Of a stretch of 64,000 bases of DNA, positions 1,390-63,410 are shown in pieces. The position numbers and the translations under genes are program-made. The DNA lies in contig NZ_BLZO01000053.1 of the NCBI RefSeq assembly GCF_014132355.1, positions 1 through 64,000 on the forward strand. Direction: 5' to 3'. Position 1 is the stretch's first letter. Each line of letters starts with the position of its first letter. This stretch comes from Okeania sp. KiyG1 (GTDB lineage: Bacteria; Cyanobacteriota; Cyanobacteriia; Cyanobacteriales; Microcoleaceae). The notes under the pieces were generated by a model, which worked only from the letters and a program-made list of their open reading frames with translations, did no database searches and was not told the DNA's origin.

Positions 1390-2911
1390 AAGTATAGGAG
1401 TTTCAACACCAGAAGCAGGGGTAGATACTACAGAGACACCAACAACGACCGTTGATGAAACTCCCACAGATGGCATAGGAGTAGCACCAATAGTAGGAGG
1501 ATTAGGATTAGCAGGGTTATTAGTAGCATGGGCAAATCAAGCAAAAAATAGTGAAATAAATCTCACAGCACAGCCAAATCAAACGGCATTAGCAACTTGG
1601 TCAGTTCCAGAAGCAGACAAAGATGCAGCCAAATCACTAGGAGGTAAGCAATATCAACTGCGGGTTTATGATGTCACAGATATAGAGCTAGACTCACAAC
1701 CAGCTCCAAGTGTGCAGCAGTATGATTGCTCAGAGTCAACCACGGACAAAGAACTAGAAAACCTGGCAGCAGAACATGAGTATCAGGCAGAAATAGGTTA
1801 TGTGACTGATGATGGTCATTGGTTAAAGTTAGCTCGTTCAGAGAAAATCAGGATATTAACAGCAGAAACTGTCATTACCGTGGATGGGGATGAAAGTATA
1901 GGAGTTTCAACACCAGAAGCAGGGGTAGATACGAAAGAGACACCAACAACGACCGTTGATGAAACTCCCACAGATGGCATACCAATAGCACCAATAGTAG
2001 GAGGATTAGGATTAGCAGGATTATTAATAGCATGGGCAAATCAAGCAAAAAATAGTGAAATAAATCTCACAGCACAACCAAATCAAACGGCATTAGCAAC
2101 TTGGTCAGTACCAGAAGCAGACAAAGATGCAGCCAAATCACTAGGAGGTAAGCAATATCAACTGCGGGTTTATGATGTCACAGATATAGAGCTAGACTCA
2201 CAACCAGCTCCAAGTGTGCAGCAGTATGATTGCTCAGAGTCAACCACGGACAAAGAACTAGAAAACCTGGCAGCAGAACATGAGTATCAGGCAGAAATAG
2301 GTTATGTGACTGATGATGGTCATTGGTTAAAGTTAGCTCGTTCAGAGAAAATCAGGATATTAACAGCAGAAACTGTCACGACCGTGGATGGGGATGAAAG
2401 TATAGGAGTTTCAACACCAGAAGCAGGGGTAGATACGAAAGAGACACCAACAACGACCGTTGATGAAACTCCCACAGATGGCATAGGAGTAGCACCAATA
2501 GTAGGAGGATTAGGATTAGCAGGGTTATTAGTAGCATGGGCAAATCAAGCAAAAAATAGTGAAATAAATCTCACAGCACAACCAAATCAAACGGCATTAG
2601 CAACTTGGTCAGTACCACAAGCAGACAAAGATGCAGCCAAATCCTATGGAGGTAAACAATATCAACTGCGGGTTTATGATGTCACAGATATAGACTTAGA
2701 CTCACAACCAGCTCCCAGTGTGCAGCAGTATGATTGCTCAGAGTCAACCACGGACAAAGAACTAGAAAACCTGGCAGCAGAACATGAGTATCAGGCAGAA
2801 ATAGGTTATGTGACTGATGATGGTGAGTGGTTAAAGTTAGCTCGTTCAGAGAAACTCAGGATATCAACAGCAGAAACTGTACGATTCCTGTGGATGGGGA
2901 TGAAAGTATAG
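1376..2911 (+). CDS. DUF4912 repeat protein, three-unit segment in frame 2
   Basis: This segment encodes three successive units of about 168 residues. Each has an acidic linker (VDGDESIGVS), a Thr/Pro stretch (ETPTTTVDETPTDGI), a hydrophobic helix, and a DUF4912 domain. The units are almost identical, including at silent positions, which shows recent duplication or conversion. The nominal ATG at 1376 falls inside the linker after a one-base gain near 1372, so it is not likely a natural start. The end at 2911 is an out-of-frame stop after a two-base gain near 2882, and homology continues in frame 1 in the next segment. If each hydrophobic stretch spans the membrane, the protein would cross it once per unit; this is inference. 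Confidence 0.6.
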   Translation: MDGDESIGVSTPEAGVDTTETPTTTVDETPTDGIGVAPIVGGLGLAGLLVAWANQAKNSEINLTAQPNQTALATWSVPEADKDAAKSLGGKQYQLRVYDVTDIELDSQPAPSVQQYDCSESTTDKELENLAAEHEYQAEIGYVTDDGHWLKLARSEKIRILTAETVITVDGDESIGVSTPEAGVDTKETPTTTVDETPTDGIPIAPIVGGLGLAGLLIAWANQAKNSEINLTAQPNQTALATWSVPEADKDAAKSLGGKQYQLRVYDVTDIELDSQPAPSVQQYDCSESTTDKELENLAAEHEYQAEIGYVTDDGHWLKLARSEKIRILTAETVTTVDGDESIGVSTPEAGVDTKETPTTTVDETPTDGIGVAPIVGGLGLAGLLVAWANQAKNSEINLTAQPNQTALATWSVPQADKDAAKSYGGKQYQLRVYDVTDIDLDSQPAPSVQQYDCSESTTDKELENLAAEHEYQAEIGYVTDDGEWLKLARSEKLRISTAETVRFLWMGMKV

Positions 2912-5763
2912 GAGTTTCAGCACCAGAAGTAGGGGTAGATACGAAAGAGACACCAACAACTTCCGTTGATGAAACTCCAACAGATGGCATAGGAGTAGCA
3001 CCAATAGTAGGAGGATTAGGATTAGCAGGGTTATTAGCAGCATGGGCAAATCAAGCAAAAAATAGTGAAATTAATCTCACAGCACAACCAAATCAAACGG
3101 CATTAGCAACTTGGTCAGTACCACAAGCAGACAAAGATGCAGCAAAATCCTATGGAGGTAAACAATATCAACTGCGGGTTTATGATGTCACAGATATAGA
3201 GCTAGACTCACAACCAGCTCCAAGTGTGCAGCAGTATGATTGCTCAGAATCTACCACGGACAAAGAACTAGAAAACCTGGCAGCAGAACATGAGTATCAG
3301 GCAGAAATAGGTTATGTGACTGATGATGGTCATTGGTTAAAGTTAGCTCGTTCTGAGAAAATCAGGATATTAACAGCAGAAACTGTCGTTCCTGTGGATG
3401 GGGATGAAAGTATAGGAGTTTCAACACCAGAAGCAGGGTTAGATACGACGGAGACACCAACAACTTCCGTTGATGAAACTCCCACAGATGGCATAGGAGT
3501 AGCACCAATAGTAGGAGGATTAGGATTAGCAGGGTTATTAGCAGCATGGGCAAATCAAGCAAAAAATAGTGAAATAAATCTCACAGCACAACCCAATCAA
3601 ACGGCATTAGCAACTTGGTCAGTTCCAGAAGCAGACAAAGATGCAGCCAAATCACTAGGAGGTAAGCAATATCAACTGCGGGTTTATGATGTCACAGATA
3701 TAGAGCTAGACTCACAACCAGCTCCAAGTGTGCAGCAGTATGATTGCTCAGAGTCAACCACGGACAAACAACTAGAAAACCTGGCAGCAGAACATGAGTA
3801 TCAGGCAGAAATAGGTTATGTGACTGATGATGGTCATTGGTTAAAGTTAGCTCGTTCAGAGAAAATCAGGATATTAACAGCAGAAACTGTCGTTCCTGTG
3901 GATGGGGATGAAAGTATAGGAGTTTCAACACCAGAAGCAGGGTTAGATACGACAGATACACCAACAACGACCGTTGATACAGAAACAACACCAGTTGATG
4001 GAAATCAAACAACTCCAACAGATGGTATAGGACTAGGGCAAATAGCATTAGGATTAGTAGGACCAGGGTTATTAGTAGCATGGGCAAATCGAAAACGGGA
4101 ACTAAATAGTGAAATAAATCTGAAATCTAATCATAGTAAAAGTGCATCAGCAACTTGGTCAGTTCCAGAAGCAGACAAAGATGCAGCTAAATTATATGGA
4201 GGTAAACAATATCAACTGCGGGTTTATGATGTCACAAATATTGACCTAGACTCACAAACAGCTCACAGTACCAGGTATTATGATTCCGAAGAGTCAAATC
4301 AGCAGTGGCAAGTAGGAAGCTTACTAGATGATTGCGAATATCAAGCAGAAATAGGCTATGCTACTGATGATGGTCAATGGCTACCATTGGCTCGTTCTAA
4401 CCGAGTTCGGATCTCAGAAGATCGTGTAGATGAAAATAAAAATATAGGTGTAGCAAAAGAACCAGAATTATTAGGTAAAGCACCAGTAAAATGGGTATTA
4501 CCTCCCTGTCAAATTACTATTACTCCTGAGAATGAAGAGAATATGATGGTGGTTTGGGAAGTTCCTCAAGTGGCGAAAAATGCAATCAAAGAACAGGGGG
4601 GAGAACAATACCAGTTGCGAATTTATGATGTTACAGGTATTGACTTGGATACACAGCCAGCATACAATGTACAAGCCTACGATTGTGAGGAATCTACTCA
4701 GCAAATGCAAGCACCTGTTTTTGTAAAAGAACGTGAATATCAAGCAGAAATAGGCTATGTCACTGATGATGGTGAGTGGTTAAAATTGGCTCGTTCTAAT
4801 CGTATCTGGATACCTGTACCTAATTTGATTGTAGACAGTGATGAAGAAAAAAGTACACATTTAGACGGAACTCCCTCTACAGCAACGATTCCAGAGGAAG
4901 TGTTGAAATCCAGTTGGATTACTATAGTACCTCACGATCGCCAGAGTGCTTGTGTTCATTTAGTAGTGTCTCAAGCTGCTAAGGATGCAGCAAAACAACA
5001 AGGTGGACAGCAATATCAATTGCGGATTTATGATGTTACAGATGTTGATATAGAATCACAAACAGCTCAAAAGATACAACAATACGATTGTGAGGAGTCT
5101 ATCCAGAAAAAAGAAATACCTATTAATATTACTTCTCCCCGCTATGTTGATTATTTAGCAGAGATTGGTTATGTCACTGATAGTTTGCAGTGGCTAATGA
5201 TTGCTCGTTCTAATCCACTACGAATGCCTATTTTGGCTCAAACTGATGATATTGCAGAGGTAAAAACAATTGGTGAACCAACTAAACCAATTATTGGTGC
5301 AGATGTAATATCTCCAGTATCAGGAAGTAAAGAAGAAACAGCGATCGCAACAAGTAACATCACCCCTGGCGACTGTGAGATTCAGCATCTTGTTGTCCAT
5401 AGTCGTAACAATTGCTATTCACTCAATGATTCACAAATTAAGGGACTTCAAGAAACGGCCGTCTCTAAAACCCTTGAACCAGGGATTTATATTGTGCGGA
5501 TTAAAAGTGGTACATTTAGTTACGGTTCTAATATTTGTCCCTCTGGTGAACCATTTGTTTTACTTTGGATTTTTGGTGGAAAGGTGAAGAATAAAAAGAC
5601 GAATATTCCGGTTGGGCAAACCTGGTCAACTTTGAATGGGTCTCACGAAACACTAACGTTAGAGGTCCTGGAAACGACTACTTTGTATGCCTTTTTTGTT
5701 GATACTTATCCTGATGATAATAACGGAGAGCTTACTGTTTCTGTAGCTAAGTTATATTCCTAA
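2827..5763 (+). CDS. DUF4912 multi-repeat protein with conserved C-terminal domain
   Basis: This is the longest intact piece of the locus. Residues 1-18 are an out-of-frame reading; homology starts near 2882. Then come two near-identical linker-helix-DUF4912 units, a third with a variant helix (LGQIALGLVGPGLLVAW) and diverged domain, and two more DUF4912 domains without helices (near 4500-4820 and 4900-5240). A linker and a final domain of about 130 residues follow (LEPGIYIVRIKSGTFSYG, EPFVLLWIFGG, LYAFFVDTYPDDNNGE, TVSVAKLYS at the very end). I have the impression that this last domain recurs at C-termini of cyanobacterial proteins, but I cannot name it. The stop is followed directly by a G-rich octamer array. 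Function is unknown; a surface or envelope role is only a guess. Confidence 0.75.
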   Translation: MVKVSSFRETQDINSRNCTIPVDGDESIGVSAPEVGVDTKETPTTSVDETPTDGIGVAPIVGGLGLAGLLAAWANQAKNSEINLTAQPNQTALATWSVPQADKDAAKSYGGKQYQLRVYDVTDIELDSQPAPSVQQYDCSESTTDKELENLAAEHEYQAEIGYVTDDGHWLKLARSEKIRILTAETVVPVDGDESIGVSTPEAGLDTTETPTTSVDETPTDGIGVAPIVGGLGLAGLLAAWANQAKNSEINLTAQPNQTALATWSVPEADKDAAKSLGGKQYQLRVYDVTDIELDSQPAPSVQQYDCSESTTDKQLENLAAEHEYQAEIGYVTDDGHWLKLARSEKIRILTAETVVPVDGDESIGVSTPEAGLDTTDTPTTTVDTETTPVDGNQTTPTDGIGLGQIALGLVGPGLLVAWANRKRELNSEINLKSNHSKSASATWSVPEADKDAAKLYGGKQYQLRVYDVTNIDLDSQTAHSTRYYDSEESNQQWQVGSLLDDCEYQAEIGYATDDGQWLPLARSNRVRISEDRVDENKNIGVAKEPELLGKAPVKWVLPPCQITITPENEENMMVVWEVPQVAKNAIKEQGGEQYQLRIYDVTGIDLDTQPAYNVQAYDCEESTQQMQAPVFVKEREYQAEIGYVTDDGEWLKLARSNRIWIPVPNLIVDSDEEKSTHLDGTPSTATIPEEVLKSSWITIVPHDRQSACVHLVVSQAAKDAAKQQGGQQYQLRIYDVTDVDIESQTAQKIQQYDCEESIQKKEIPINITSPRYVDYLAEIGYVTDSLQWLMIARSNPLRMPILAQTDDIAEVKTIGEPTKPIIGADVISPVSGSKEETAIATSNITPGDCEIQHLVVHSRNNCYSLNDSQIKGLQETAVSKTLEPGIYIVRIKSGTFSYGSNICPSGEPFVLLWIFGGKVKNKKTNIPVGQTWSTLNGSHETLTLEVLETTTLYAFFVDTYPDDNNGELTVSVAKLYS

Positions 5764-6453: not shown

Positions 6454-7257
6454 TTAAAAATTCACACTAACAAACTGTGACTCTGGCAATGCAGCTATTT
6501 CTGCCGAACTTGTGTTCAACACATATCCTAAGAGTTGATTTGTACCACTCATTTTAATCGCAGTACCCTCTAAAACACCATCATTATTTGGGTCTAAATC
6601 CTGTAGTGAAAGACCTGCCTTAGGTAAAAGTTCGACTTCATCATCGATAAATGGAAAAATCAAATTTGCATTAATTCCAAACTCTTCAAAACTATTAAAA
6701 TCTTCAAATATCAGATCGGATTTTGTCATCCCTCCTGTTAATCCAATAATATCTTCAGAAGAGTTAAAATCAGTAATAATTGCATTAGGCAATTCAGCAG
6801 TACTGGGAATTCCTGGAAATAAAGAAATAACACCACTTAAATCTTGTGTTATTCCTGCTAACTCAGTTCTGAAAACATATACATCACTTCCCAAACCACC
6901 TTTATAAATACCAACACCAGCATCACCAATTAAAGTATCATTACCCTCTCCACCATTTAATAGATCGGTACCTTTACCTCCATACAATATGTCATCACCA
7001 AAACCACCATTGAGAAAATCCGTATCCTTGTTGCCATACAAACTATCATTACCATTCTCTCCAAATAACTCGTCTTCTCCTCTACCACCAAAAATTAAGT
7101 CGTTGACAGATGAACCAGTAATGGTATCATCACCACTAAGAGCTAATACTCCCCCAGGAAAAGAATTAGCTTGCTCTACTGTGAGAATCTCATTATCATC
7201 ACCACCTGTTCCCAATAAACGAGGAAAAGAATCTGAAAAATCTTCAGTAAGTACCAT
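6454..7257 (-). CDS. RTX-type calcium-binding repeat protein
   Basis: A 267-residue protein. Residues 20-45 (TVEQANSFPGGVLALSGDDT) lead into six or so RTX nonapeptides between about residues 45 and 120 (GGRGEDELF, ENGNDSLYG, GGFGDDILY, GGEGNDTLI), the Gly/Asp motif that binds calcium in a beta-roll. A C-terminal part of about 140 residues with ITDFNSSEDIIGL and DLDPNNDGVLEG follows; such regions are common after RTX repeats in cyanobacteria. No signal peptide is visible, which fits type I secretion of RTX proteins, but no secretion genes are adjacent apart from an unrelated-looking ABC-2 exporter. It is divergent from the ATPase gene at 7346. The exact role (adhesin, S-layer-like) is not determined. 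Confidence 0.85.
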   Translation of the reverse strand: MVLTEDFSDSFPRLLGTGGDDNEILTVEQANSFPGGVLALSGDDTITGSSVNDLIFGGRGEDELFGENGNDSLYGNKDTDFLNGGFGDDILYGGKGTDLLNGGEGNDTLIGDAGVGIYKGGLGSDVYVFRTELAGITQDLSGVISLFPGIPSTAELPNAIITDFNSSEDIIGLTGGMTKSDLIFEDFNSFEEFGINANLIFPFIDDEVELLPKAGLSLQDLDPNNDGVLEGTAIKMSGTNQLLGYVLNTSSAEIAALPESQFVSVNF

Positions 7258-7345
7258 AACTTAGTATGTCTCCTAAATATGCTAAATTTTTGCTGTCCTA
7301 TTTATGTCGAATGTTGTCTGTAACTCAAATTAATATTCAAAAGTT

Positions 7346-8344
7346 ATGTCTATTATAGTCGCTAAAAATCTGAGTAAAATTTACCCAGTAGCTATCAAAG
7401 AACCAGGAATTAAGGGAACACTACGTCATTTTATACGTCGCAACTACCAATATGTTAAGGCAGTTGAAGATATTACATTTGAAATAGACCCGGGGGAGGT
7501 AGTGGGGTTTCTCGGACCTAACGGCGCTGGTAAAACTACTACTCTGAAAATGCTGACAGGTTTAATTCATCCGTCTAACGGTATAGTTAAGGTAGCTGAT
7601 TATGTCCCCTTTGAACGCAAGAGAGAATTTTTAGAGCAAATTACTTTAGTTATGGGGCAAAAACAACAGTTAATTTGGGATTTACCAGTGTTAGACTCGC
7701 TGAAAATTAATGCTGCTGTTTACGGTCTTTCTGACAAAGAATATTACAGAAGGTTAATGGAATTAACGGAGATGTTGTCCCTGGAGGGAAAGTTGAAGCA
7801 ACCAGTCAGAAAATTATCTCTGGGGGAACGGATGAAAGCAGAGTTGATGGCGGCGTTGTTGCATCAACCGAAAGTTTTATTTTTGGATGAACCAACTTTA
7901 GGTTTAGATATAAATGCACAAGTTGCAGTGCGGGAGTTTTTGCAAGAATATAATCAACGTTATCAGGCAACTGTGTTATTGACGAGTCATTATATGGCTG
8001 ATATTACGGCTTTGTGTAAGCGTGTATTGTTAATATATCAAGGTCAGTTAATTTATGATGGGAGTTTAGATGGTTTACTCGATCGCTTTGCTCCTTATCG
8101 AGAGGTACAAATAGAGTTACTTAATCCTGTGTCTACAGATGTAGATAATTTTGAGCAACATTTATCTAATTATGGGGAGGTGGAAATGTTGGAAGGTCAG
8201 TCAATACATTTGTTAGTACGCCGGGAAAATTTAACGGCAACTGTAGCTCAGATTTTGGCAGAATTAGAAGTGCAAGATTTGACTGTGACTGACCCACCTA
8301 TTGAGGAGGTTATTGGTAGAGTTTTTCGTGCAGGAAAAGTATAG
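7346..8344 (+). CDS. ABC-2 type exporter, ATP-binding subunit
   Basis: A 332-residue ABC ATPase. Visible motifs are Walker A GPNGAGKTT (residues 57-65), the signature LSLGE (157-161), Walker B VLFLDEPT (177-184) and the switch histidine in TSH (H215). Residues 250-332 form a C-terminal extension like that in drug/polysaccharide exporter ATPases. The likely partner is the permease at 10590-11378 on the same strand. The two are now 2.2 kb apart because DUF1963 genes and repeats lie between them. ATPases of this type usually work with two DUF990/ABC-2 permeases; only one is present here. The substrate cannot be told from sequence. Confidence 0.9.
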   Translation: MSIIVAKNLSKIYPVAIKEPGIKGTLRHFIRRNYQYVKAVEDITFEIDPGEVVGFLGPNGAGKTTTLKMLTGLIHPSNGIVKVADYVPFERKREFLEQITLVMGQKQQLIWDLPVLDSLKINAAVYGLSDKEYYRRLMELTEMLSLEGKLKQPVRKLSLGERMKAELMAALLHQPKVLFLDEPTLGLDINAQVAVREFLQEYNQRYQATVLLTSHYMADITALCKRVLLIYQGQLIYDGSLDGLLDRFAPYREVQIELLNPVSTDVDNFEQHLSNYGEVEMLEGQSIHLLVRRENLTATVAQILAELEVQDLTVTDPPIEEVIGRVFRAGKV

Positions 8345-8445
8345 TTTAAGTCAAAATTTAAAAGTCAAAAGTCAAAAGTAGGAATTTTTCTGAATTATAT
8401 TACAGCAATTACCGAGTTGATGATAACTGATAACTGATAACTGAA

Positions 8446-8533
8446 ATGACTAATATTCCCCCAAAAATTCAACCCTATAAACGTAATGCTTGGAAACCAA
8501 TAACTATTGATGGAGATGGGGATTTAACTGCTT
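8446..8533 (+). pseudogene. N-terminal fragment of a DUF1963 gene (broken copy 1)
   Basis: The ATG at 8446 begins a text nearly identical to the start of the intact paralogue at 9787 (both read MTNIPPKIQPYK, then AWKPITIDGDG). Homology stops at about 8530, where a foreign sequence beginning CTTGTGACATACTCCC enters and soon gives a stop. The rest of the gene resumes near 8976 as the open frame 8969-9664. This was a tandem duplicate cut by a mobile insertion of about 440 bp. Confidence 0.75.
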
Positions 8534-8842
8534 GTGACATACTCCCACACTAAGCAGGTGCTATAGTATAAGCTCTCTCGTTTCGCAGCCCCGGTATCCC
8601 GTCGGGCAAGCGCGTGCTTTAAGAACGGAATGCCCTGCCGCTCTTTTTGGACATAAAAAACTGCTCACCTAGTTCCGCAATAAGATTTTATGTTTTCCCA
8701 CGGTTGACTAGGAATTTAGGCCAACAACCCCATATCCTATTGAATTTTCATGGTTCATTACTGGCGGCGATTAGCTCAAACCAGCGTAATTCGATGATAA
8801 CATAAAAATTTGTAAATTAATGGAACATCTCCTCCCATTAAT
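8531..8842 (-). mobile_element. Stand-alone right-end-like fragment of a TnpB-type (IS200/IS605) element
   Basis: This is insertion material inside the DUF1963 copy. Read on the minus strand it ends GTGGGAGTATGTCACAAG, a text I associate with right ends of cyanobacterial TnpB elements, and it is rich in short stems (GCACGCGCTTGCCCGACGGG, TGCCCTGCCGCTCTTTTTGG on plus). No tnpB frame remains. The assignment rests on resemblance to other IS right ends and on its position at an insertion point. Confidence 0.4.
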
Positions 8843-8973
8843 TTACCGAATAATTAAGGTTTAAAGCCTCTCCTTTTAAGGAGAAACAAGAAAAAATTTT
8901 CCTTTGATTCAATCCTCTTCCTTTTAGGGAGAGGTAATTATCAATTATCCATTATCAATTATCAATTATTGAA
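8843..8973 (+). repeat. Family 1 repeat, forward copy
   Basis: It begins TTACCGAATAATTAAGG, has AAAGCCTCTCC and TAGGGAGAGGTAATTA stems, and ends with ATTATCAATTATTGAA. It lies directly downstream of the IS fragment. Its final TTG is the only plausible start codon of the open frame 8969-9664. Confidence 0.8.
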
Positions 8974-9664
8974 CGCCGATTCATCTGGTCGCCAAATCAC
9001 AGATTATGGCGATCTGCTCAAGAGCGATTTAGCTAAATTTGCAGGTAAACCTTGGTTAGGAAAAAATGAAGAATGGCCGAAATGTCCTCATTGTCAGAAT
9101 CCTTTAGAATTCTTTTTTCAGCTAAACTTAAATCAATTACCAGAATCATTACAAAATAAGTTTGGCAGTGGAATTTTACAAATGTTTTATTGTACATATA
9201 CGAATGTATATGGAGACGAGTTTTGCGAATTAGATTATCAAGGATGGGAGGCATTTTCAGATATTCATTTTCTCAGAATTATTCAGCCAGAAACAGAAGC
9301 AAGAGATGTAGAAATTCCTGAAATTGAAGATATTTATCAACCAAAACTAATAGTTGGTTGGCAACAATTAGACGATTATCCTAATTTTGAAGAAGCTCAG
9401 GAAATAGGCATTGAACTAAGTTTTGATGAATACTACTCATCTCTAGAAAAATATCCAATTGAAGGAGATCAATTAGGAGGCTGGCCTTTTTGGGAACAAA
9501 ATATAGAGTATCCTAATTGTCCGATTTGTGGTGAAAGAATGGAATTAGTTTTTCAACTTTATTCAGAAGGTAACTCCCCTTTTATAGGTTGTAGAACAGC
9601 TCACGGCCATATTACTCAATGTCAAAATCATAAACATCAGTTAGCATTTTCTTCGTCTTATTGA
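8969..9664 (+). CDS. DUF1963 (YwqG-like) protein, 5'-disrupted copy
   Basis: The 231-residue frame matches the intact paralogue at 9787-10497 along most of its length (FAGKPWLGK, WPKCPHCQNPL, PIEGDQLGGWPFW, CPICGERMELVFQ, then a C-terminal GHITQCQNHKHQLAF). The CPxC pairs and final His/Cys suggest metal binding. Its own start is a TTG contributed by a repeat, and residues 2-22 have no counterpart in the paralogue, so the original N-terminus is lost to the insertion at 8531-8973. It may still be expressed but is more likely a decaying duplicate. Confidence 0.65.
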   Translation: MNADSSGRQITDYGDLLKSDLAKFAGKPWLGKNEEWPKCPHCQNPLEFFFQLNLNQLPESLQNKFGSGILQMFYCTYTNVYGDEFCELDYQGWEAFSDIHFLRIIQPETEARDVEIPEIEDIYQPKLIVGWQQLDDYPNFEEAQEIGIELSFDEYYSSLEKYPIEGDQLGGWPFWEQNIEYPNCPICGERMELVFQLYSEGNSPFIGCRTAHGHITQCQNHKHQLAFSSSY

Positions 9665-9786
9665 TTGACGCGATCGCTAAACTACTAATTTATGAACTAA
9701 TGTAATAAATAATCTGAAACGTTCAATTTTTTCAATTAATTACTATCCTCTAAATAGTTGATTAATTCTTTCTACAAATAAATATT

Positions 9787-10497
9787 ATGACTAATATTCC
9801 CCCAAAAATTCAACCCTATAAACATCACGCTTGGAAACCAATAACTATTGATGGAGATGGTGCTTTAACAGATTCTAAATTTGCTGGTAAACCTTGGTTA
9901 GGAAAAGACGAGCAATGGCCGAAATGTCCCCATTGCCAAAATCCTTTACAATTCTTTCTTCAGCTAAACCTTAATACCTTACCAGAAGCATTAAAAAATG
10001 AATTTGGTAGCGGTATTTTACAGATGTTTTATTGCACTAATGCAGAACTACTTTGTGATTGCGATTATGAAGGATGGGAACCATTTTCCGACATTCATTT
10101 AATTAGAATCGTTCAACCAGAAGGAAAAGCCCAAGATGTAAAAATTCCTGAAAATCAAGAATTTTTTCCTCCTAAATTAATTGTCGATTGGCAATATCTA
10201 GAAGATTATCCTAATTATGAAGAAGCAGCAGAACTTGGTGTAGAATTAAATTTTAATTTAGATGAATTATTTTTCGATAATTTCCCAATTGAAGGAGATA
10301 AATTAGCAGGTTGGCCTTTATGGGTTCAGGGAATAGAATATCCTAATTGTCCGATTTGTAATGAAAGAATGCGGTTAGTTTTTCAGGTTGATTCTGAGGA
10401 TAATTTACCTTTTATGTTTGGGGATGCTGGTTGTGGTCATATTACTCAGTGCAAATATCATAAAAATCAAGTAGCATTTGGTTGGGCTTGTGCCTAA
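9787..10497 (+). CDS. DUF1963 (YwqG-like) family protein
   Basis: A 236-residue intact paralogue. It has KFAGKPWLGKDEQWPKC near the N-terminus, a duplicated core (WPKCPHCQNPLQFF and later YPNCPICNERMRLVFQ), and a C-terminal GCGHITQCKYHKNQVAFGW. These are typical of DUF1963, whose function is unknown; Cys-x-x-Cys pairs suggest zinc. It lies between the ATPase and permease genes of an ABC-2 exporter with a 92-nt T/C-rich spacer before the permease, so co-transcription is possible but functional coupling is not shown. Confidence 0.8.
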   Translation: MTNIPPKIQPYKHHAWKPITIDGDGALTDSKFAGKPWLGKDEQWPKCPHCQNPLQFFLQLNLNTLPEALKNEFGSGILQMFYCTNAELLCDCDYEGWEPFSDIHLIRIVQPEGKAQDVKIPENQEFFPPKLIVDWQYLEDYPNYEEAAELGVELNFNLDELFFDNFPIEGDKLAGWPLWVQGIEYPNCPICNERMRLVFQVDSEDNLPFMFGDAGCGHITQCKYHKNQVAFGWACA

Positions 10498-10589
10498 TAT
10501 AATACTAATAATATTTTTCCTTCTTCCTTCTTTCTTCTTCCTTCTTTCTTCTTTCTTCTTTCTTCTTCCTTCTTCAACCATTAAAAACC

Positions 10590-55355: not shown

Positions 55356-56261
55356 TTAGCAAAAGACACTTAAATGTAAATTTTGAGAAATTAGTTCTAA
55401 AAGAAATAAACCTGCTACAGAATTTCCTTGCTTGTCTAGAGGAGGACTATAACAAACAATTATTCCTGTACTAGGAACTACTCCCAAAACAATTCCACTT
55501 ACACTAGACTTAATCGGAATTCCTATTTTTACAGTATAACAACTTGATGCTTCATACAAACCACAGGTAGTCATTAGTGCTTTAACTGCACAACAGTGTT
55601 TTTTCCACTTAGAATTAGGACCTTTTACTAACAACATTCCTAAATTAGCTAAATCAAAGATTGTGCCAGATAAACAACAAATTTGATTATAAGTATCTAA
55701 AGCAATTTTCCAGTCTTGAATATAACCAGCTTCTACCAATTTTTCAGCGATCGCTTGATTATTCTGATTAGGTAAAGACCTAACAGAAGCTAATATATTT
55801 GTATCTAAAAATAATTGACATTTTCCATACTCGTTCAGCCAAGAACAAAAATTTTCACAGCGCTCTTGAGCAGTATTTCCTGGTAGTAACGATGATAAAG
55901 CGATCGCTCCACTATTAATCATTGGATTTCTTGGCCATCCACCGTCAATTTCTAGTTGTTCTAAAGAATTGAAAGGCTTTTCTGAAGGTTCTATTCCCAC
56001 TCTTTTAAATACAAAATCACTGCCAAATTCACATAATAAATATAAGAGCAAAAAAGGTTTAATTGCACTCATTAGAGGCAATTTTTTTTCTACATTACCT
56101 AATGAGGTAATCTGATTTTCAATACTTTGTAAAACTATGGCAAAATCATTAGGGTTAGCTTCAGCAAGTGAAGGAATATAAGTAGGTAAATTACCTAGTT
56201 TTGTTTGAATTAATGCTGTTTCTACCCAGGCTGATAATTGTTGTTCGTCAATGGCTAACAT
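55356..56261 (-). CDS. glsA: Glutaminase (serine-dependent beta-lactamase-fold type)
   Basis: A 301-residue protein. The catalytic S65-x-x-K68 lies in LMSAIKPFLLLYLL. RVGIEPSEKPFNSLEQLE, NPMINSGAIALSSLL, CCLSGTIFDLANLGMLLVKG and MTTCGLYEASSCYTVKIGIP are family motifs. GIPIKSSVSGIVLGVVPS holds the later active-site strand. It hydrolyses glutamine to glutamate and ammonia. The ammonia link with the Amt-cyclase gene 2 kb away is suggestive only. The start is the ATG at 56261. The C-terminus (NLHLSVFC) meets a repeat at once. Confidence 0.9.
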   Translation of the reverse strand: MLAIDEQQLSAWVETALIQTKLGNLPTYIPSLAEANPNDFAIVLQSIENQITSLGNVEKKLPLMSAIKPFLLLYLLCEFGSDFVFKRVGIEPSEKPFNSLEQLEIDGGWPRNPMINSGAIALSSLLPGNTAQERCENFCSWLNEYGKCQLFLDTNILASVRSLPNQNNQAIAEKLVEAGYIQDWKIALDTYNQICCLSGTIFDLANLGMLLVKGPNSKWKKHCCAVKALMTTCGLYEASSCYTVKIGIPIKSSVSGIVLGVVPSTGIIVCYSPPLDKQGNSVAGLFLLELISQNLHLSVFC

Positions 56262-58135: not shown

Positions 58136-61100
58136 TCAATATAACTCTTTTTTTCCCTGCAAAAGATAAGCCTTCATGTAACCCTTGCCCTTAATATTTA
58201 TAAATCCCCGTTCCACAAATAAAAATTTGTGCTGTAGAATCTGATAGATATCTTCTGTCACTTGTATAACACCTGGCATACCATGAGACTCCATACGACT
58301 AGCAATATTCACAGTATCACCCCATAAATCGTAGATAAACTTTTTACGTCCAATTACACCAGCGACTACTGGGCCAGTATTTATACCAATACGGATATTA
58401 AAGTCTTGTTCCTGTTCATCAGAAAAATGAGCTACTTCCTCGATCATATCTATAGCCATTAGAGCGATCGCCTCAGCATGATTTTCCATTGGGTCTGGCA
58501 ACCCACCCACGACCATATAAGCATCTCCAATAGTTTTAATTTTCTCCAAACCATATTTTTCTGCGAGTAAATCAAATCTGGAAAAAATCTCATTTAACCA
58601 ATAAACTAATCTTTCAGGAGTGGCACGACCTGCTAATTCAGTAAACCCTACTAAATCTGCAAATAAAACTGTAACTTCTGCGAATCCTTCTGCAATTGTA
58701 CTATCTCCTTCTTTTAATCTATCAGCAATAGGTTTAGGTAGAATATTTAACAACAATTTTTCTGACTTTTCTCGTTCTAAGAGCAAAGCTGTTTCTACTT
58801 TTTTACGTTCAGTTATATCACGACAAAGAGCCAAAATTAATTTACCATTTCCTGCTTTTAATAAACCCAAACGTATTTCTACAGGAAAAGTTGTATTATC
58901 TTTGCGACGATGAATTCCCTCTATAGTCATTGGTCTGCCAACAATCAAATTTTTCCATTTTTTAGGAAACTCTTGAGAGACAAAATTTTCTTCAATATCT
59001 TCTACATATAAATTCAATAATTCTTGACGAAAATATCCCAAACTTTTACAGGTACTTTCATTTACATCAATAATTTTTCCTTTTAAATCGTGAATAATAA
59101 AAGCATCTGCTGCTTGTTCCATTACTGCTCTAAATCTTTCCTCACTTTCTCGTAATGCTGCCTCTGCTAATTTTCGCTCAGTAATATCTCTTAAAGCTGC
59201 CACTCCATTTTGATTACCTCTGTATAAAAAAACCTTAGATTCAACTTCTAAAGGAAAAGTTGAACCATCTTTTCTCACTCCAATTACTTCATAAGCTTTT
59301 TCCGAACCAGAAGTCATTTTTTCAACTACTAAATCGTGGTATTCTGGAGCGATTAATTGCCATCCATCCATACCCACCATTTCTGATAACTCATATCCAA
59401 ACATATTGGCAGCAGCGACATTTGTATCCATGATTTTTTCTTGTTCATGGATAATAATTCCTTCAACGGTAGCTCTAGATAAACTCCGAAACCTTTGCTC
59501 ATTTTCCTTGAGCTTTATTTCTGATTCCTTTCTATCTGTAATATCTCTAAAAGTTCCTGTGTAGAAAGTTTTTTGATTAAATTTTACTTCCCTAACTGCA
59601 ATTTCCATTGGAAATAGAGAACCATCTGCACGGACACCAACTAATTCAAAAAGGTTTCCACTGTTAGCAATTTTAGATATCAGTAATTCTATATAATCAT
59701 TTTGTCGAACGCTTTTTTTTTGTTGCTCCAACTCTGTTTGACTATCTATTAAATTCTCATCTAGTAAATGCAAAAAACTAGGAAAAAAATCTTGCCAATT
59801 TTCTGGCTGAATATCTGGCAACTCAAAGACATAAAAATAATTTTTACTTTCTAAACTTTGAGAGAAGATCGAATCTGGATTAACCCATAATTTTAATGGT
59901 TCTACTCTTAACTCTTCTGATGCCATTAATAAACGATCAGCATCCATTTTTTCCATAGTCAATGGATTAATAGTAAAGTCAAATACTTGATAAATAGGCT
60001 TCCCTACTAAATCTTGATTTTTGTAGGCAAAAATTTTCTCACCACTAGGATTTATACTAATAATTTCTAGCTCTGGTTTAGTAAAAGTAATAATGGCATC
60101 TGTCGCCACTTTAATAATGGCATCATTTCTGGCAGTAACTTCCTCCAAAGCATCCATTACCTGATTGTAGCGATCGGCAATTTGACCTACTTCTGTAAAA
60201 GGTTCCACAGGTACTCGCAAACTTAAATCTTGCGTACTAGCTTGAGAATCCATTACTCTAAATAAATCTAATATTTCTGTTTTAGCTTGATGCTCCGAAA
60301 CATTTAAACCAATACGTTCATCTGCTTCTGAAACTCGGAAGAAATAAAGCTTATTTGTAATAAATAAAATTGGATATACCAAACAAAATCCTAATAAAAA
60401 AGCTGCAAAAATTCCTAATAGCTGAACTGTCAATTGTTGGCTAAAACTAAGACCAGTATCTAAAACCTCTGCCTTCCCAAAAAAAGCTACAGCTAATGTT
60501 CCCCAAATACCCCCACCCAGGTGAACTGGAATAGCTCCAACAGCATCATCGACTCGAACTTTTTCTAAAGCTTGCTCTACCAACATAGTGACTATGGCAG
60601 CAATAACACCAATGAAAATGGCAGAAAAAGCTGTAACAGCATGACAAGCTGCTGTAATGCCAACTAAACCAGAAAGAGTACCATTAATTAGTCCCTCAAC
60701 ACTGGGTATTCCTCTGATATACCAAGTAATACCAAGAGTAATAATCATTCCTGCTGCACTAGCAAGAATTGTATTGACAATAATACCTGCTACTTGTTCG
60801 TTTAATGCCAGGGTACTTCCACCATTAAACCCAAACCAACCAAACCAAATCAGCATTGCCCCCAAAACTGATAGGGGTAAATTAGAACCATGAATTTTTT
60901 CTGGTGGACGACCGGGAGGAAATCTACCTGTTCGAGGACCAATAACTAATAAAGCTGCTAGAGACACCCACCCACCAATACTATGAACAACAGTCGAACC
61001 TGCGAAGTCAACAAAACCATTATGTCCAAGCCAACCTATTAATATACCAGTATCAACTCCATTCCAAACCCAATGACCAAATATGGGATAGACCAAACCT

Positions 61101-61456
61101 GAAACTAGGGAGGCGACGAATAAATAGGAGGCATACTTCATGCGTTCAGCTACTGCACCAGAAACGATGGTGGTAGCTGTACCACAGAACATTACTTGAA
61201 ATAAAAAGAAGGCTGCGTCAAAAGCTTGTAGATCGGTTGCCAGGAAAAATTTACTATGGCCAATTATTCCAGAAGATGAAGCCCCAAACATGAAAGCAAA
61301 TCCAAAACTCCAAAAGCAGGTAACTGAAATACCAAAATCTGTTAAGTTTTTAATGGCAACGTTAATGCTATTTTTTGACCTGGTGAGTCCAGACTCTAAA
61401 CACATAAATCCAGGCTGCATGATAAATACTAACCCAGAGCAAAGTAATATCCACAA
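58136..61456 (-). CDS. Ammonium transporter - PAS - adenylate cyclase fusion protein
   Basis: A 1106-residue single frame. Residues 1-385 are an Amt/Rh ammonium channel with D150, H158 (STVVHSIGGW) and H312 (IPVHLGGGIWG), the ammonium-recruiting Asp and twin His. A linker follows (HAMP-like, 385-445), then PAS domains at about 445-550, 580-645, 655-760 and 770-885 (NEQRFRSLSRATVEGIIIHE, ESEERFRAVMEQAADAFIIH, with RDITERK linkers). Residues 890-1106 are a class III cyclase: metal D934 (LFADLVGF) and D978 (IGDAYM), adenine-selecting K974 (KIKTIGD) and D1043 (IYDLWGD), N1050 and R1054. All catalytic residues are present, so it is predicted to make cAMP, possibly under control of ammonium passing the channel. 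The start at TTG 61456 truncates the N-terminus; see the small frame at 61507. Confidence 0.93.
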   Translation of the reverse strand: MWILLCSGLVFIMQPGFMCLESGLTRSKNSINVAIKNLTDFGISVTCFWSFGFAFMFGASSSGIIGHSKFFLATDLQAFDAAFFLFQVMFCGTATTIVSGAVAERMKYASYLFVASLVSGLVYPIFGHWVWNGVDTGILIGWLGHNGFVDFAGSTVVHSIGGWVSLAALLVIGPRTGRFPPGRPPEKIHGSNLPLSVLGAMLIWFGWFGFNGGSTLALNEQVAGIIVNTILASAAGMIITLGITWYIRGIPSVEGLINGTLSGLVGITAACHAVTAFSAIFIGVIAAIVTMLVEQALEKVRVDDAVGAIPVHLGGGIWGTLAVAFFGKAEVLDTGLSFSQQLTVQLLGIFAAFLLGFCLVYPILFITNKLYFFRVSEADERIGLNVSEHQAKTEILDLFRVMDSQASTQDLSLRVPVEPFTEVGQIADRYNQVMDALEEVTARNDAIIKVATDAIITFTKPELEIISINPSGEKIFAYKNQDLVGKPIYQVFDFTINPLTMEKMDADRLLMASEELRVEPLKLWVNPDSIFSQSLESKNYFYVFELPDIQPENWQDFFPSFLHLLDENLIDSQTELEQQKKSVRQNDYIELLISKIANSGNLFELVGVRADGSLFPMEIAVREVKFNQKTFYTGTFRDITDRKESEIKLKENEQRFRSLSRATVEGIIIHEQEKIMDTNVAAANMFGYELSEMVGMDGWQLIAPEYHDLVVEKMTSGSEKAYEVIGVRKDGSTFPLEVESKVFLYRGNQNGVAALRDITERKLAEAALRESEERFRAVMEQAADAFIIHDLKGKIIDVNESTCKSLGYFRQELLNLYVEDIEENFVSQEFPKKWKNLIVGRPMTIEGIHRRKDNTTFPVEIRLGLLKAGNGKLILALCRDITERKKVETALLLEREKSEKLLLNILPKPIADRLKEGDSTIAEGFAEVTVLFADLVGFTELAGRATPERLVYWLNEIFSRFDLLAEKYGLEKIKTIGDAYMVVGGLPDPMENHAEAIALMAIDMIEEVAHFSDEQEQDFNIRIGINTGPVVAGVIGRKKFIYDLWGDTVNIASRMESHGMPGVIQVTEDIYQILQHKFLFVERGFINIKGKGYMKAYLLQGKKELY

Positions 61457-61506: not shown

Positions 61507-61764
61507 TCAGTCTAAATTGATTTTTCTAGGAATAACAGTTAGAGTTTTATGGGAATTTTGGGGTTCTATAAACTGTAATTCTGGGGATTTGTCAAAGCAA
61601 AGATTTTCTAAGTCTGAATTATAAATTTGCTGTATTGTACTTTCTTTTATTTGATTTGATAATTGATGATTTTGTATATATTTATCTATTAGTGACCCGT
61701 GTAAAATAGTTAATGCTAGGGTCAGGAAAAATAAAATAATCCCTAAAATGGATTTTCGATGCAT
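61507..61764 (-). CDS. Probable N-terminal part of the Amt-cyclase protein (shifted frame)
   Basis: 85 residues with an N-terminal membrane segment (SILGIILFFLTLALTILHG) and a polar stretch ending VIPRKINLD. The Amt frame is open upstream of its TTG, reading KNISTSSSQSTYEPIDILW, which looks like a natural run-in to the first Amt helix. The two frames meet in a GAAAAATC run (61526-61532 region); one extra A, or a minus-one slip on AAA, would fuse them. I therefore read this as the signal/first helix of the same protein, separated by a homopolymer frame shift. Confidence 0.55.
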   Translation of the reverse strand: MHRKSILGIILFFLTLALTILHGSLIDKYIQNHQLSNQIKESTIQQIYNSDLENLCFDKSPELQFIEPQNSHKTLTVIPRKINLD

Positions 61765-61877: not shown

Positions 61878-63410
61878 TTGACATCCTCCCGACGCTGCTC
61901 TACGAGACAGCGCGGGATTCCCATCCATCAATCAAACAGACAGTAGGGGCGAACGGCCGTTCGCCCCTACAGGAAAGATTCAGGGCGGGTTGACGACTCA
62001 CTGACACGAACATCCTTTTTAGGGGATGATTTACCACGTCTCCTCGTCCGTTTAATTGTCTCCGGTTGACCCTCGGCGACTTCATTAAAAAGTGATAATT
62101 GTACAGACGTTTCTACTACTTTTGTTTTCGCTGTTTCCACCTTGGTTTTCGGTTGAACAACTTCTAAAATATTTACAGCAGCGTTGACATCTCTATCGTG
62201 AAAAGTTCCGCAATTGAGGCAAGTCCACTCACGGACATTTAGCTCTTTCTTTCCTCCCTTAAAGCCACAAAAACTGCATTTTTGGCTAGTAGGCTCCCAT
62301 CTGGAAATGACTTTAAACTCTCTACCATACTTTTCACATTTAGCCTCAGTTATAGTTCTAAATTGTCTCCAGCCTAAATCACTAATTGCTTTAGCCAATT
62401 TGCGATAGCGTAGCTCCTCCGTAGGAGGCTTTTTAACCATGCCAGAAACATTCAAATCTTCCAGTACAATAACATCATACTTTCTAACCAAATCAGTTGA
62501 TAACTTGTGTAGAAAATCAGTCCTAATATCTTTAATTTTGGTATGTTTGCGCAGCATTCCGTAGGAAAGTTTACCGATTTTTAGTCTACGTTTTTCACGA
62601 CGTTTACTGCCTGATTCAGTTCTGGCAAATTTACGCTGAAATTTAGCTAACTTTTTGAGGTTGTTTTTCAGAGGTTTTGGAGCATTAATTTTGTCTCCGT
62701 TACTCAAAGTTGCAAAAGTTGAAATACCTAAATCAATACCTATTGATTTGCCAAGCTTTGGTAAATGTTCTGCACAAGTTTCTACAACAAAACTAGCAAA
62801 GTAACGTCCTGCACTATCTTTAATTATAGTAACTGAACTAGGTTTACTAGCCAATGGTCTAGACCAAACTATTTTAATTTTTCCTACTTTTGGGAGATAG
62901 ATTTTATCTGGACCTACCTGATAATTTTCACCTACAAATCTTGCAGTTTGTCTAGATTTCCTGGACTTAAATAATGGTGGCTGTACGGGCGAACGGCCGT
63001 TCGCCCCTACACCTTTACGCTTACCAGTACAACTATTAAATAAATTTTTATATGCCTGGTCTAAATCTTTTAATGATTGTTGTAGTGGAGTGGATGCCAC
63101 TTCCTTTAACCAAACTAATTCTCGTTTAGCTTTAGTTATGAATTGTTTAGTTAAATCAACATAACTTGGTTTCTTACTACCATTAGCATACAGTTGATTA
63201 CAATGTGCTAATGATTGATTCCAAACATATCGACAACAACCAAATAGTTGATTAATGCGCGTTACTTGTATATGATTTGGATAGATGCGATATTTGTATC
63301 TTGCTTTCAATGTTTTTACCTATTACTCACACTCTTCGTATTACTATAGTATTGGTTGGCATTCATCCCGACACCAAATCAGAGATTATGGTGCGGGTAT
63401 AAATGCCAAC
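61878..63410 (-). mobile_element. Complete TnpB-only IS200/IS605-type element
   Basis: The right end (minus strand) is GCGTCGGGAGGATGTCAA at 61878, matching right ends at 31607, 44541 and 37991. The left end is a hairpin GTTGGCATTCATCCCGAC ... GTGCGGGTATAAATGCCAAC (63355-63410). It contains one tnpB and no tnpA. The region between the tnpB stop and the right end (61878-61966) would hold the end of the guide RNA; it is now invaded by a 28-nt palindrome at 61943-61970. Confidence 0.85.
61967..63310 (-). CDS. tnpB: TnpB with three in-frame repeat insertions
   Basis: A 447-residue TnpB. RuvC residues are D192 (GIDLGIS), E283 (VLEDLNVSGM) and D373 (HDRDVNAA), and the zinc finger is C344/C347 and C363/C366. 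Compared with the homologue at 36749 and the family pattern, three short peptides are extra: VGANGRSP (101-108, from the palindrome at 62983-63010), SYGMLRK (248-254, from 62545-62569) and PPTEELRY (294-301, from 62402-62431). The stop codon itself lies in another palindrome copy (61943-61970), which has probably replaced the original C-terminus. All active-site residues remain. The start ATG is at 63310, with the usual MKARYKYRIYP. Confidence 0.88.
   Translation of the reverse strand: MKARYKYRIYPNHIQVTRINQLFGCCRYVWNQSLAHCNQLYANGSKKPSYVDLTKQFITKAKRELVWLKEVASTPLQQSLKDLDQAYKNLFNSCTGKRKGVGANGRSPVQPPLFKSRKSRQTARFVGENYQVGPDKIYLPKVGKIKIVWSRPLASKPSSVTIIKDSAGRYFASFVVETCAEHLPKLGKSIGIDLGISTFATLSNGDKINAPKPLKNNLKKLAKFQRKFARTESGSKRREKRRLKIGKLSYGMLRKHTKIKDIRTDFLHKLSTDLVRKYDVIVLEDLNVSGMVKKPPTEELRYRKLAKAISDLGWRQFRTITEAKCEKYGREFKVISRWEPTSQKCSFCGFKGGKKELNVREWTCLNCGTFHDRDVNAAVNILEVVQPKTKVETAKTKVVETSVQLSLFNEVAEGQPETIKRTRRRGKSSPKKDVRVSESSTRPESFL

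Follow-up and report, generated by a model that had tools for sequence, protein, structure and literature searches.

A window of 64,000 nucleotides, the whole stretch analyzed here, was taken from contig C53 (NZ_BLZO01000053.1) of the draft genome of Okeania sp. KiyG1 (10,982,302 bases, 198 contigs). On its minus strand a single frame (58136-61456; 1106 codons from the first TTG, free of internal stops) joins an Amt module to a HAMP-like module, three PAS domains (PAS1-3) and a class III (IIIa-type) adenylate cyclase. The Amt half falls within the class of ammonium receptors, and the fusion is likely a one-protein transducer of ammonium into cyclic AMP (cAMP). A Pfam scan of the frame placed Ammonium_transp at residues 1-392 (60281-61456, E 2.5e-118), Guanylate_cyc at residues 923-1100 (58157-58690, E 2.2e-63) and PAS_9 on three stretches (136 bits, cut-off 27). 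An earlier note, made from the letters of this DNA alone, had proposed that one polypeptide links an Amt channel to a class III cyclase. The open frame and the Pfam domains agree with this, and the residues it singled out (D150, H158, H312, D934, K974, D978, D1043, N1050, and R1054) are all found at these positions. An AlphaFold2 model of the fusion built from 24 sequences had a mean predicted local distance difference test score (pLDDT) of 74.3 and a predicted template modeling score of 0.49. Amt and PAS entries filled the 50 matches listed for the fusion, so that the absence of cyclase and HAMP entries among them is uninformative.

While the note had counted four PAS domains, we find three, at residues 453-640 (PAS1, 59537-60100), 645-762 (PAS2, 59171-59524) and 769-887 (PAS3, 58796-59152), all on the minus strand. 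Some 100 inserted residues (about 495-600, 59657-59974) interrupt PAS1; they are missing in the relative L019. The model contains three PAS-type sheets, within residues 454-638, 722-757, and 785-880; the insertion is mostly of low confidence in it and the front of PAS2 is poorly predicted. The count of four was therefore dropped.

The cyclase set read in the earlier note is intact, with D934 and D978 as metal, K974 and D1043 as purine, and N1050 and R1054 as transition-state residues. All six positions were invariant in a 12-row alignment; parts of the domain fall below a pLDDT of 50 in the model. A Lys/Asp purine pair is the mark of class IIIa, and by this pair the output domain is predicted to be a class III adenylate cyclase of the IIIa type. 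On the cyclase tree the window's group forms one clade of 14 rows (support 99/95) of the D,K,D,D,N,R type. Other D,K,D,D,N,R cyclases encoded in the genome (L177-L183 and others nearest) cluster with the window's domain; they share the residue set but lack an Amt. Class III cyclases account for 30 matches in the genome (two being parts of a single gene) and cyclic nucleotide monophosphate-binding domains for 14; among its Amt matches, the window's alone lies in an Amt-cyclase frame.

Near full-length matches to the fusion were found in all five congeners (G001-G005), in G011, G012, G017, and G026 of the same family and, within the order, in G068 and, as two pieces of one frame, in G136. In G035 the match is divided between two frames, and pieces occur in G006, G022, and G032. 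Altogether 75 of 149 related genomes matched at E 1e-100 or better, many of them over the Amt part or the PAS-cyclase part alone. A scan of named genomes added an Oscillatoriales metagenome-assembled genome (MAG; L038) and Oscillatoria sp. SIO1A7 (L039); the match values of Okeania sp. SIO3I5 (L037) are the same as those of the G017 locus. Among 386 sampled genomes of the phylum, 30 had a close match to the Amt and linker (E 1e-110 or better), and window-type frames among these 30 were limited to the own genome, G011 and G068; this version of the fusion is therefore uncommon.

The gene order around the Amt-cyclase gene is shared as well, since a response regulator, a glutaminase, an SDR gene and the Amt-cyclase gene occur together in 8 of 13 sources. 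The ratio of nonsynonymous to synonymous substitution rates (dN/dS, omega) was calculated against seven relatives, of which L017 was saturated or close to saturation. For the six relatives with measurable dS it was 0.13-0.22 in the Amt, 0.08-0.20 in the linker, 0.13-0.19 in the cyclase, 0.20-0.31 in PAS2-3, and 0.33-0.54 in PAS1 with its insertion, the least constrained part measured inside the frame. These values indicate purifying selection on the Amt, the linker and the cyclase. The earlier note had named an assembly join of two genes as one outcome that would overturn its proposal. As the joint architecture is conserved in five of five congeners and in other cyanobacterial genera, with shared gene order and under purifying selection, such a chimera can be given practically no weight and the fusion is genuine.

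The putative ammonium site of the Amt module

Identical Amt segments were dropped before the residues of the ammonium site were aligned. Q14, E21, N37, D40, T96, and S99 of the window match Q24, E31, N47, D50, T109, and T/S112 of the ammonium site of Ks-Amt5 from Kuenenia stuttgartiensis (6eu6); five of the seven Ks-Amt5 ligands are identical and a sixth is conservative. The site reads QENDTS in both the window and Sd-Amt1 of Shewanella denitrificans (PDB 8qj3, 8qj4, 8qpf), QENDTT in Ks-Amt5, VYSSAT in Af-Amt1 and TYVTGV in AmtB. Stand-alone cyanobacterial Amts, sampled as 30 loci that are mostly the best-scoring part of a longer match list, carry NENV or TYSL/M where the window has QEND. The Gln/Asp pair of the receptors was present in 49 of 49 fused Amts vs. 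0 of 34 scorable stand-alone Amts, in a count that separates loci L037-L116 from the rest. These loci were derived from a scan with the peptide pattern MQ[PA]GFMC (80 of 564 matches taken), and because the pattern contains the site Gln, Q24 is present in them largely by construction. Two short Amts with receptor letters blur the split, namely L058, a contig-end piece within the cyclase clade, and L062, with a tail of 89 residues.

On a 76-row tree the Amt of the window groups with the known receptors, apart from the stand-alone transporters (100/99); Ks-Amt5 and Sd-Amt1 are long branches in this tree. Eleven rows had been omitted as close kin or fragments, picked by name rather than by measured identity, as had two PDB transporters, and five SAR11-type rows and five stand-alone Amts were kept. 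As expected of a receptor Amt, the module is followed by a cytoplasmic signaling output in one frame. By sequence, model, tree and ammonium-site residues, the Amt half is a member of the receptor class of Ks-Amt5 and Sd-Amt1 and not of the transporters. The sensor role suggested in the earlier note, which leaned on Amt-kinase precedents alone, is thereby supported, and we offer the site residues as a candidate annotation rule to separate receptor Amts from transporters. The pore residues (Phe gate F90/F210, W131, S214, D150, and the twin His H158/H312) are all present. The note's term "complete Amt channel" may mislead, as transport is reportedly lost in Ks-Amt5 (PMC5764959, available text).

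A converter shared by different outputs

Between the Amt and PAS1 lies a HAMP-like module (residues 393-452, 60101-60280, minus strand), overlooked in the domain list of the note, which had the Amt, PAS and cyclase parts. Behind the C-terminal GLNxxEH of the Amt, 66 aligned relatives carry a TEILDLFRVMDSQAxTQDLSLRVPVEPFTEVGQIADRYNQVMDALE-like stretch, whatever output follows. In the model it folds as helix-connector-helix (helices 394-408 and 422-452), with a pLDDT of about 58-81 per block of ten. HAMP was the commonest Pfam family on the linkers (27 of 67, best E 0.0059; runner-up 5 of 67). Aligned with a profile of HAMP domains from the same genome (14 of 17 matches over the cut-off, three with shortened loci being excluded), the converter profile reached a probability of 91.6% in hhalign, compared to 0.2% for the reversed alignment and at most 6.4% for 40 column shuffles. 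The HAMP-like converter is conserved behind the Amt irrespective of a kinase, SpoIIE-type phosphatase, GGDEF or cyclase output. New here are this converter, the receptor class of the Amt half and the three architectures in which a cyclase is attached to such a receptor. In five short relatives with tails ending soon past the converter, HAMP exceeded the Pfam cut-off in three, the best match lying behind the converter; a second HAMP can therefore follow it. Cyanobacterial Amts L135, L139, L140, L144, and L061 (frames of about 550-600 residues) carry the converter, and a catalytic output was not found in them; they are possible receptors acting on a separate partner.

Outputs identified by Pfam on relatives of the Amt were histidine kinase (L027, L028, L030), SpoIIE (L021, L022, and L067 of SAR11), GGDEF-EAL (L044) and cyclase, and the cyclases are located at three places on the Amt tree. 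The window clade comprises 13 cyclase rows and the contig-end piece L058 (93/94). A clade of six rows combines kinase and cyclase (99/92). It includes the kinase-receiver-cyclase proteins of Symploca sp. SIO3C6, two Pseudanabaenaceae MAGs and Cyanobacteria bacterium SBLK; the other two rows and a third, off-tree protein were fetched whole, and kinase and cyclase were both present. On the cyclase tree the domains of the kinase-receiver group are surrounded mainly by D,K,D,T,N,R domains, which we take to be class IIIb, as we take D,K,D,D,N,R cyclases to be class IIIa. The third place is that of Yoonia sediminilitoris (L077, 681 residues), a long and weakly placed branch (84/51). Its cyclase stands directly behind the converter with no Pfam PAS match between them, and on the cyclase tree it lies outside the window's clade on a very long branch.

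In our reading, a cyclase was coupled to a receptor Amt three separate times, via PAS domains, via a kinase(-receiver), and directly in Yoonia. The first two cases are based on supported tree branches and on a difference in cyclase type, the third on architecture and a weak tree placement. Three gains is the reading after correction of cut loci; with the output labels as first seen, five changes between cyclase and no cyclase were needed on the Amt tree, and the starred branches alone force two (label AC). These labels came from small custom hidden Markov models built on Pfam-defined domains, and edge-cut loci can miss outputs; for L036, L133, L136, and L137 the complete proteins were retrieved and rescored, and L174 was left as cut. 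We lean toward the view that the Amt and its converter form a general plug-in ammonium receptor on which outputs have been swapped, namely kinase, SpoIIE-type phosphatase, GGDEF, and adenylate cyclase in three architectures (IIIa via PAS, IIIb via kinase-receiver, and IIIa directly in Yoonia). If so, direct signaling from ammonium to cAMP would be a recurrent bacterial pathway that has hitherto gone unnoticed.

Among plasmids, 22 records matched the Yoonia-type fusion, none of them covering 80% of the query. Pelagibacteraceae (L067, L069, L080, and others) have a receptor-type Amt with the same converter and a SpoIIE-type domain; in the pattern-derived loci this label was given to 56 of 78 fused proteins. 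SAR11-type Amt-SpoIIE genes occur as a tandem pair in ten loci, e.g., L067:7959-10064 and L067:10485-12710.

Proposed signal path and competing explanations

In a one-protein transducer, external ammonium would enter the vestibule of the receptor-type Amt and bind the putative intramembrane site from Q14 to S99, and binding would shift the C-terminal region of the Amt. The HAMP-like module would turn this movement into a helix change that could travel via PAS1-3 and a signaling-helix stalk to the cyclase, where the pairing of two cyclase domains and hence cAMP output would be altered, ammonium acting as either activator or inhibitor. The probable role of PAS1-3 is that of a relay or of a second input.

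Several observations weigh against this path. T51 of the Ks-Amt5 site is a Phe in the window, as in Sd-Amt1, and the bulky Y30 and F34, said to block the Ks-Amt5 pore, are replaced by L20 and L24, so that a loss of transport cannot be assumed. A HAMP match is absent in 40 of 67 linkers, and the window's linker alone reaches 15.1 bits, below the Pfam cut-off of 25, which is why we call it HAMP-like and not a HAMP member. Amt proteins are trimers and HAMP, PAS and class III cyclase domains usually dimers, a mismatch that leaves the assembly unexplained. The window copy may also be poorly expressed, since its N-terminal leader lies in another frame and codon 13, within the first Amt helix, is the first in-frame ATG; the TTG at 61456 is merely the first start-like codon in frame.

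In fungi, ammonium is signaled toward the cAMP pathway by the Amt-family protein Mep2, with separate proteins in place of the one polypeptide found here, and Mep2 has been proposed to be a transceptor acting on PKA/cAMP. The Amt of the window might likewise still transport ammonium, the cyclase reporting flux rather than binding. The retained pore residues and the smaller side chains at two of the three bulky positions said to close the Ks-Amt5 pore speak for a transceptor, which we nevertheless consider unlikely given the Gln and Asp specific to receptors; the Ks-Amt5 pore has the same motifs, and its transport is nonetheless reported lost (PMC5764959, available text). Somewhat less probable still is that the real input (redox, light or oxygen) enters through the PAS domains, with the Amt mainly a membrane anchor or brake. 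Three PAS domains do stand between Amt and cyclase, and the cyclase does group with others of its genome; however, PAS1 with its insertion is the part under least constraint, and PAS_9 matches just two stretches in L038 and Pfam finds no PAS in Yoonia, while Amt and linker are constant.

The gene could also be a decaying copy in this strain, which we regard as improbable. An in-frame leader of about 100 extra residues with an MHRKSILG-like beginning precedes the Amt in four of five congeners and in relatives from G012, G017, G011, and G026. In the window this leader (a hydrophobic helix and a variable stretch) is a separate open reading frame (61507-61764, minus strand), shifted by a one-base frame slip near 61520-61530. 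Directly upstream lies the frame of a TnpB (IS605/Cas12f-like; 61967-63310, minus strand), and since homology with the congeners ends near 61880, about 120 bases before the leader ATG and next to this frame, the element probably displaced the native upstream region. The fifth congener, G001, carries the Amt-cyclase gene as two tandem copies, with the leader in frame in the first and likewise out of frame in the second. Slip, lost homology and the G001 copy fit decay, but all 1106 downstream codons are open with low omega. The leader itself shows almost no constraint (dN/dS 0.55-1.3, five pairs), and its loss may therefore be tolerated. A stand-alone amt of the same draft (L002, G000:C115:67001-68157) is also broken between two frames, which is either a true loss or a draft error, so that a sequencing slip is possible for the leader too. 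The other stand-alone amt (L003, G000:C130:10372-11700) is divergent, with 35% identity to the window Amt.

The preferred reading, a one-protein transducer, combines a known kind of sensor with a new output. Sd-Amt1 has the same class of Amt, and its output is reportedly a diguanylate cyclase, whereas the fusion described here has three PAS domains and an adenylate cyclase. Cyanobacterial Amt-PAS histidine kinases (L027, L030) and Amt-PAS-SpoIIE proteins (L021, L022) share the Amt class and the converter but differ in their output and have a single PAS_9 stretch each. Receptor Amt structures are deposited in the PDB, and a sensor Amt with kinase output has been published: Ks-Amt5 has an extra intramembrane ammonium site and then a cytoplasmic output, as here, but the output is a histidine kinase in place of the adenylate cyclase, and its authors describe a protein without HAMP, unlike the window fusion with its HAMP-like module (PMC5764959, available text). 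No Amt-adenylate cyclase fusion was described in open-access titles or abstract starts among the matches listed, and the name Sd-Amt1 was absent from the open-access literature matches listed. In the available main text of a 2023 review of prokaryotic Amt proteins (PMC10433425) the word cyclase has 0 occurrences.

NifH of this genome exceeds the NCBIfam equivalog cut-off (453.9 vs. 394.35 bits), and its owner may therefore fix nitrogen. To our knowledge, few bacterial receptors are known for ammonium outside the cell, compared to internal nitrogen status, which is sensed via PII. With the fusion, one membrane protein may convert ammonium outside the cell straight into cAMP. Nitrogen is one of several factors to which cAMP in cyanobacteria responds, according to section 7 of a review (PMC10117731, available text), where no receptor for this effect is named; a single protein tying an ammonium receptor to cAMP in a nifH-bearing genome would offer a direct handle on it. 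Because cyclases were recruited repeatedly and the converter is common to all outputs, the coupling lends itself to domain swaps.

Upstream DNA and neighboring genes

The NtcA consensus is GTA-N8-TAC, and such a site was not found within 700 bases upstream of the gene in seven of eight sources; one is located about 600 bases upstream in Okeania sp. SIO3I5. The tandem copies of G001 lie on contig C118 (L229:2589-6499 and 7106-10558), the first being broken by N runs.

Two genes downstream of the Amt-cyclase gene, the window carries a glutaminase (55356-56261, minus strand), an enzyme that releases ammonium. A functional link between the two was set aside, as the intervening SDR gene has the opposite orientation, and the set was not seen in L038, L039, L077, and L233 (L230 ends too soon to show this neighborhood); for these reasons the arrangement is taken as shared descent. 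Further away, another frame in the window (2827-5760, plus strand) encodes a protein of 978 amino acids with DUF4912 in five stretches.

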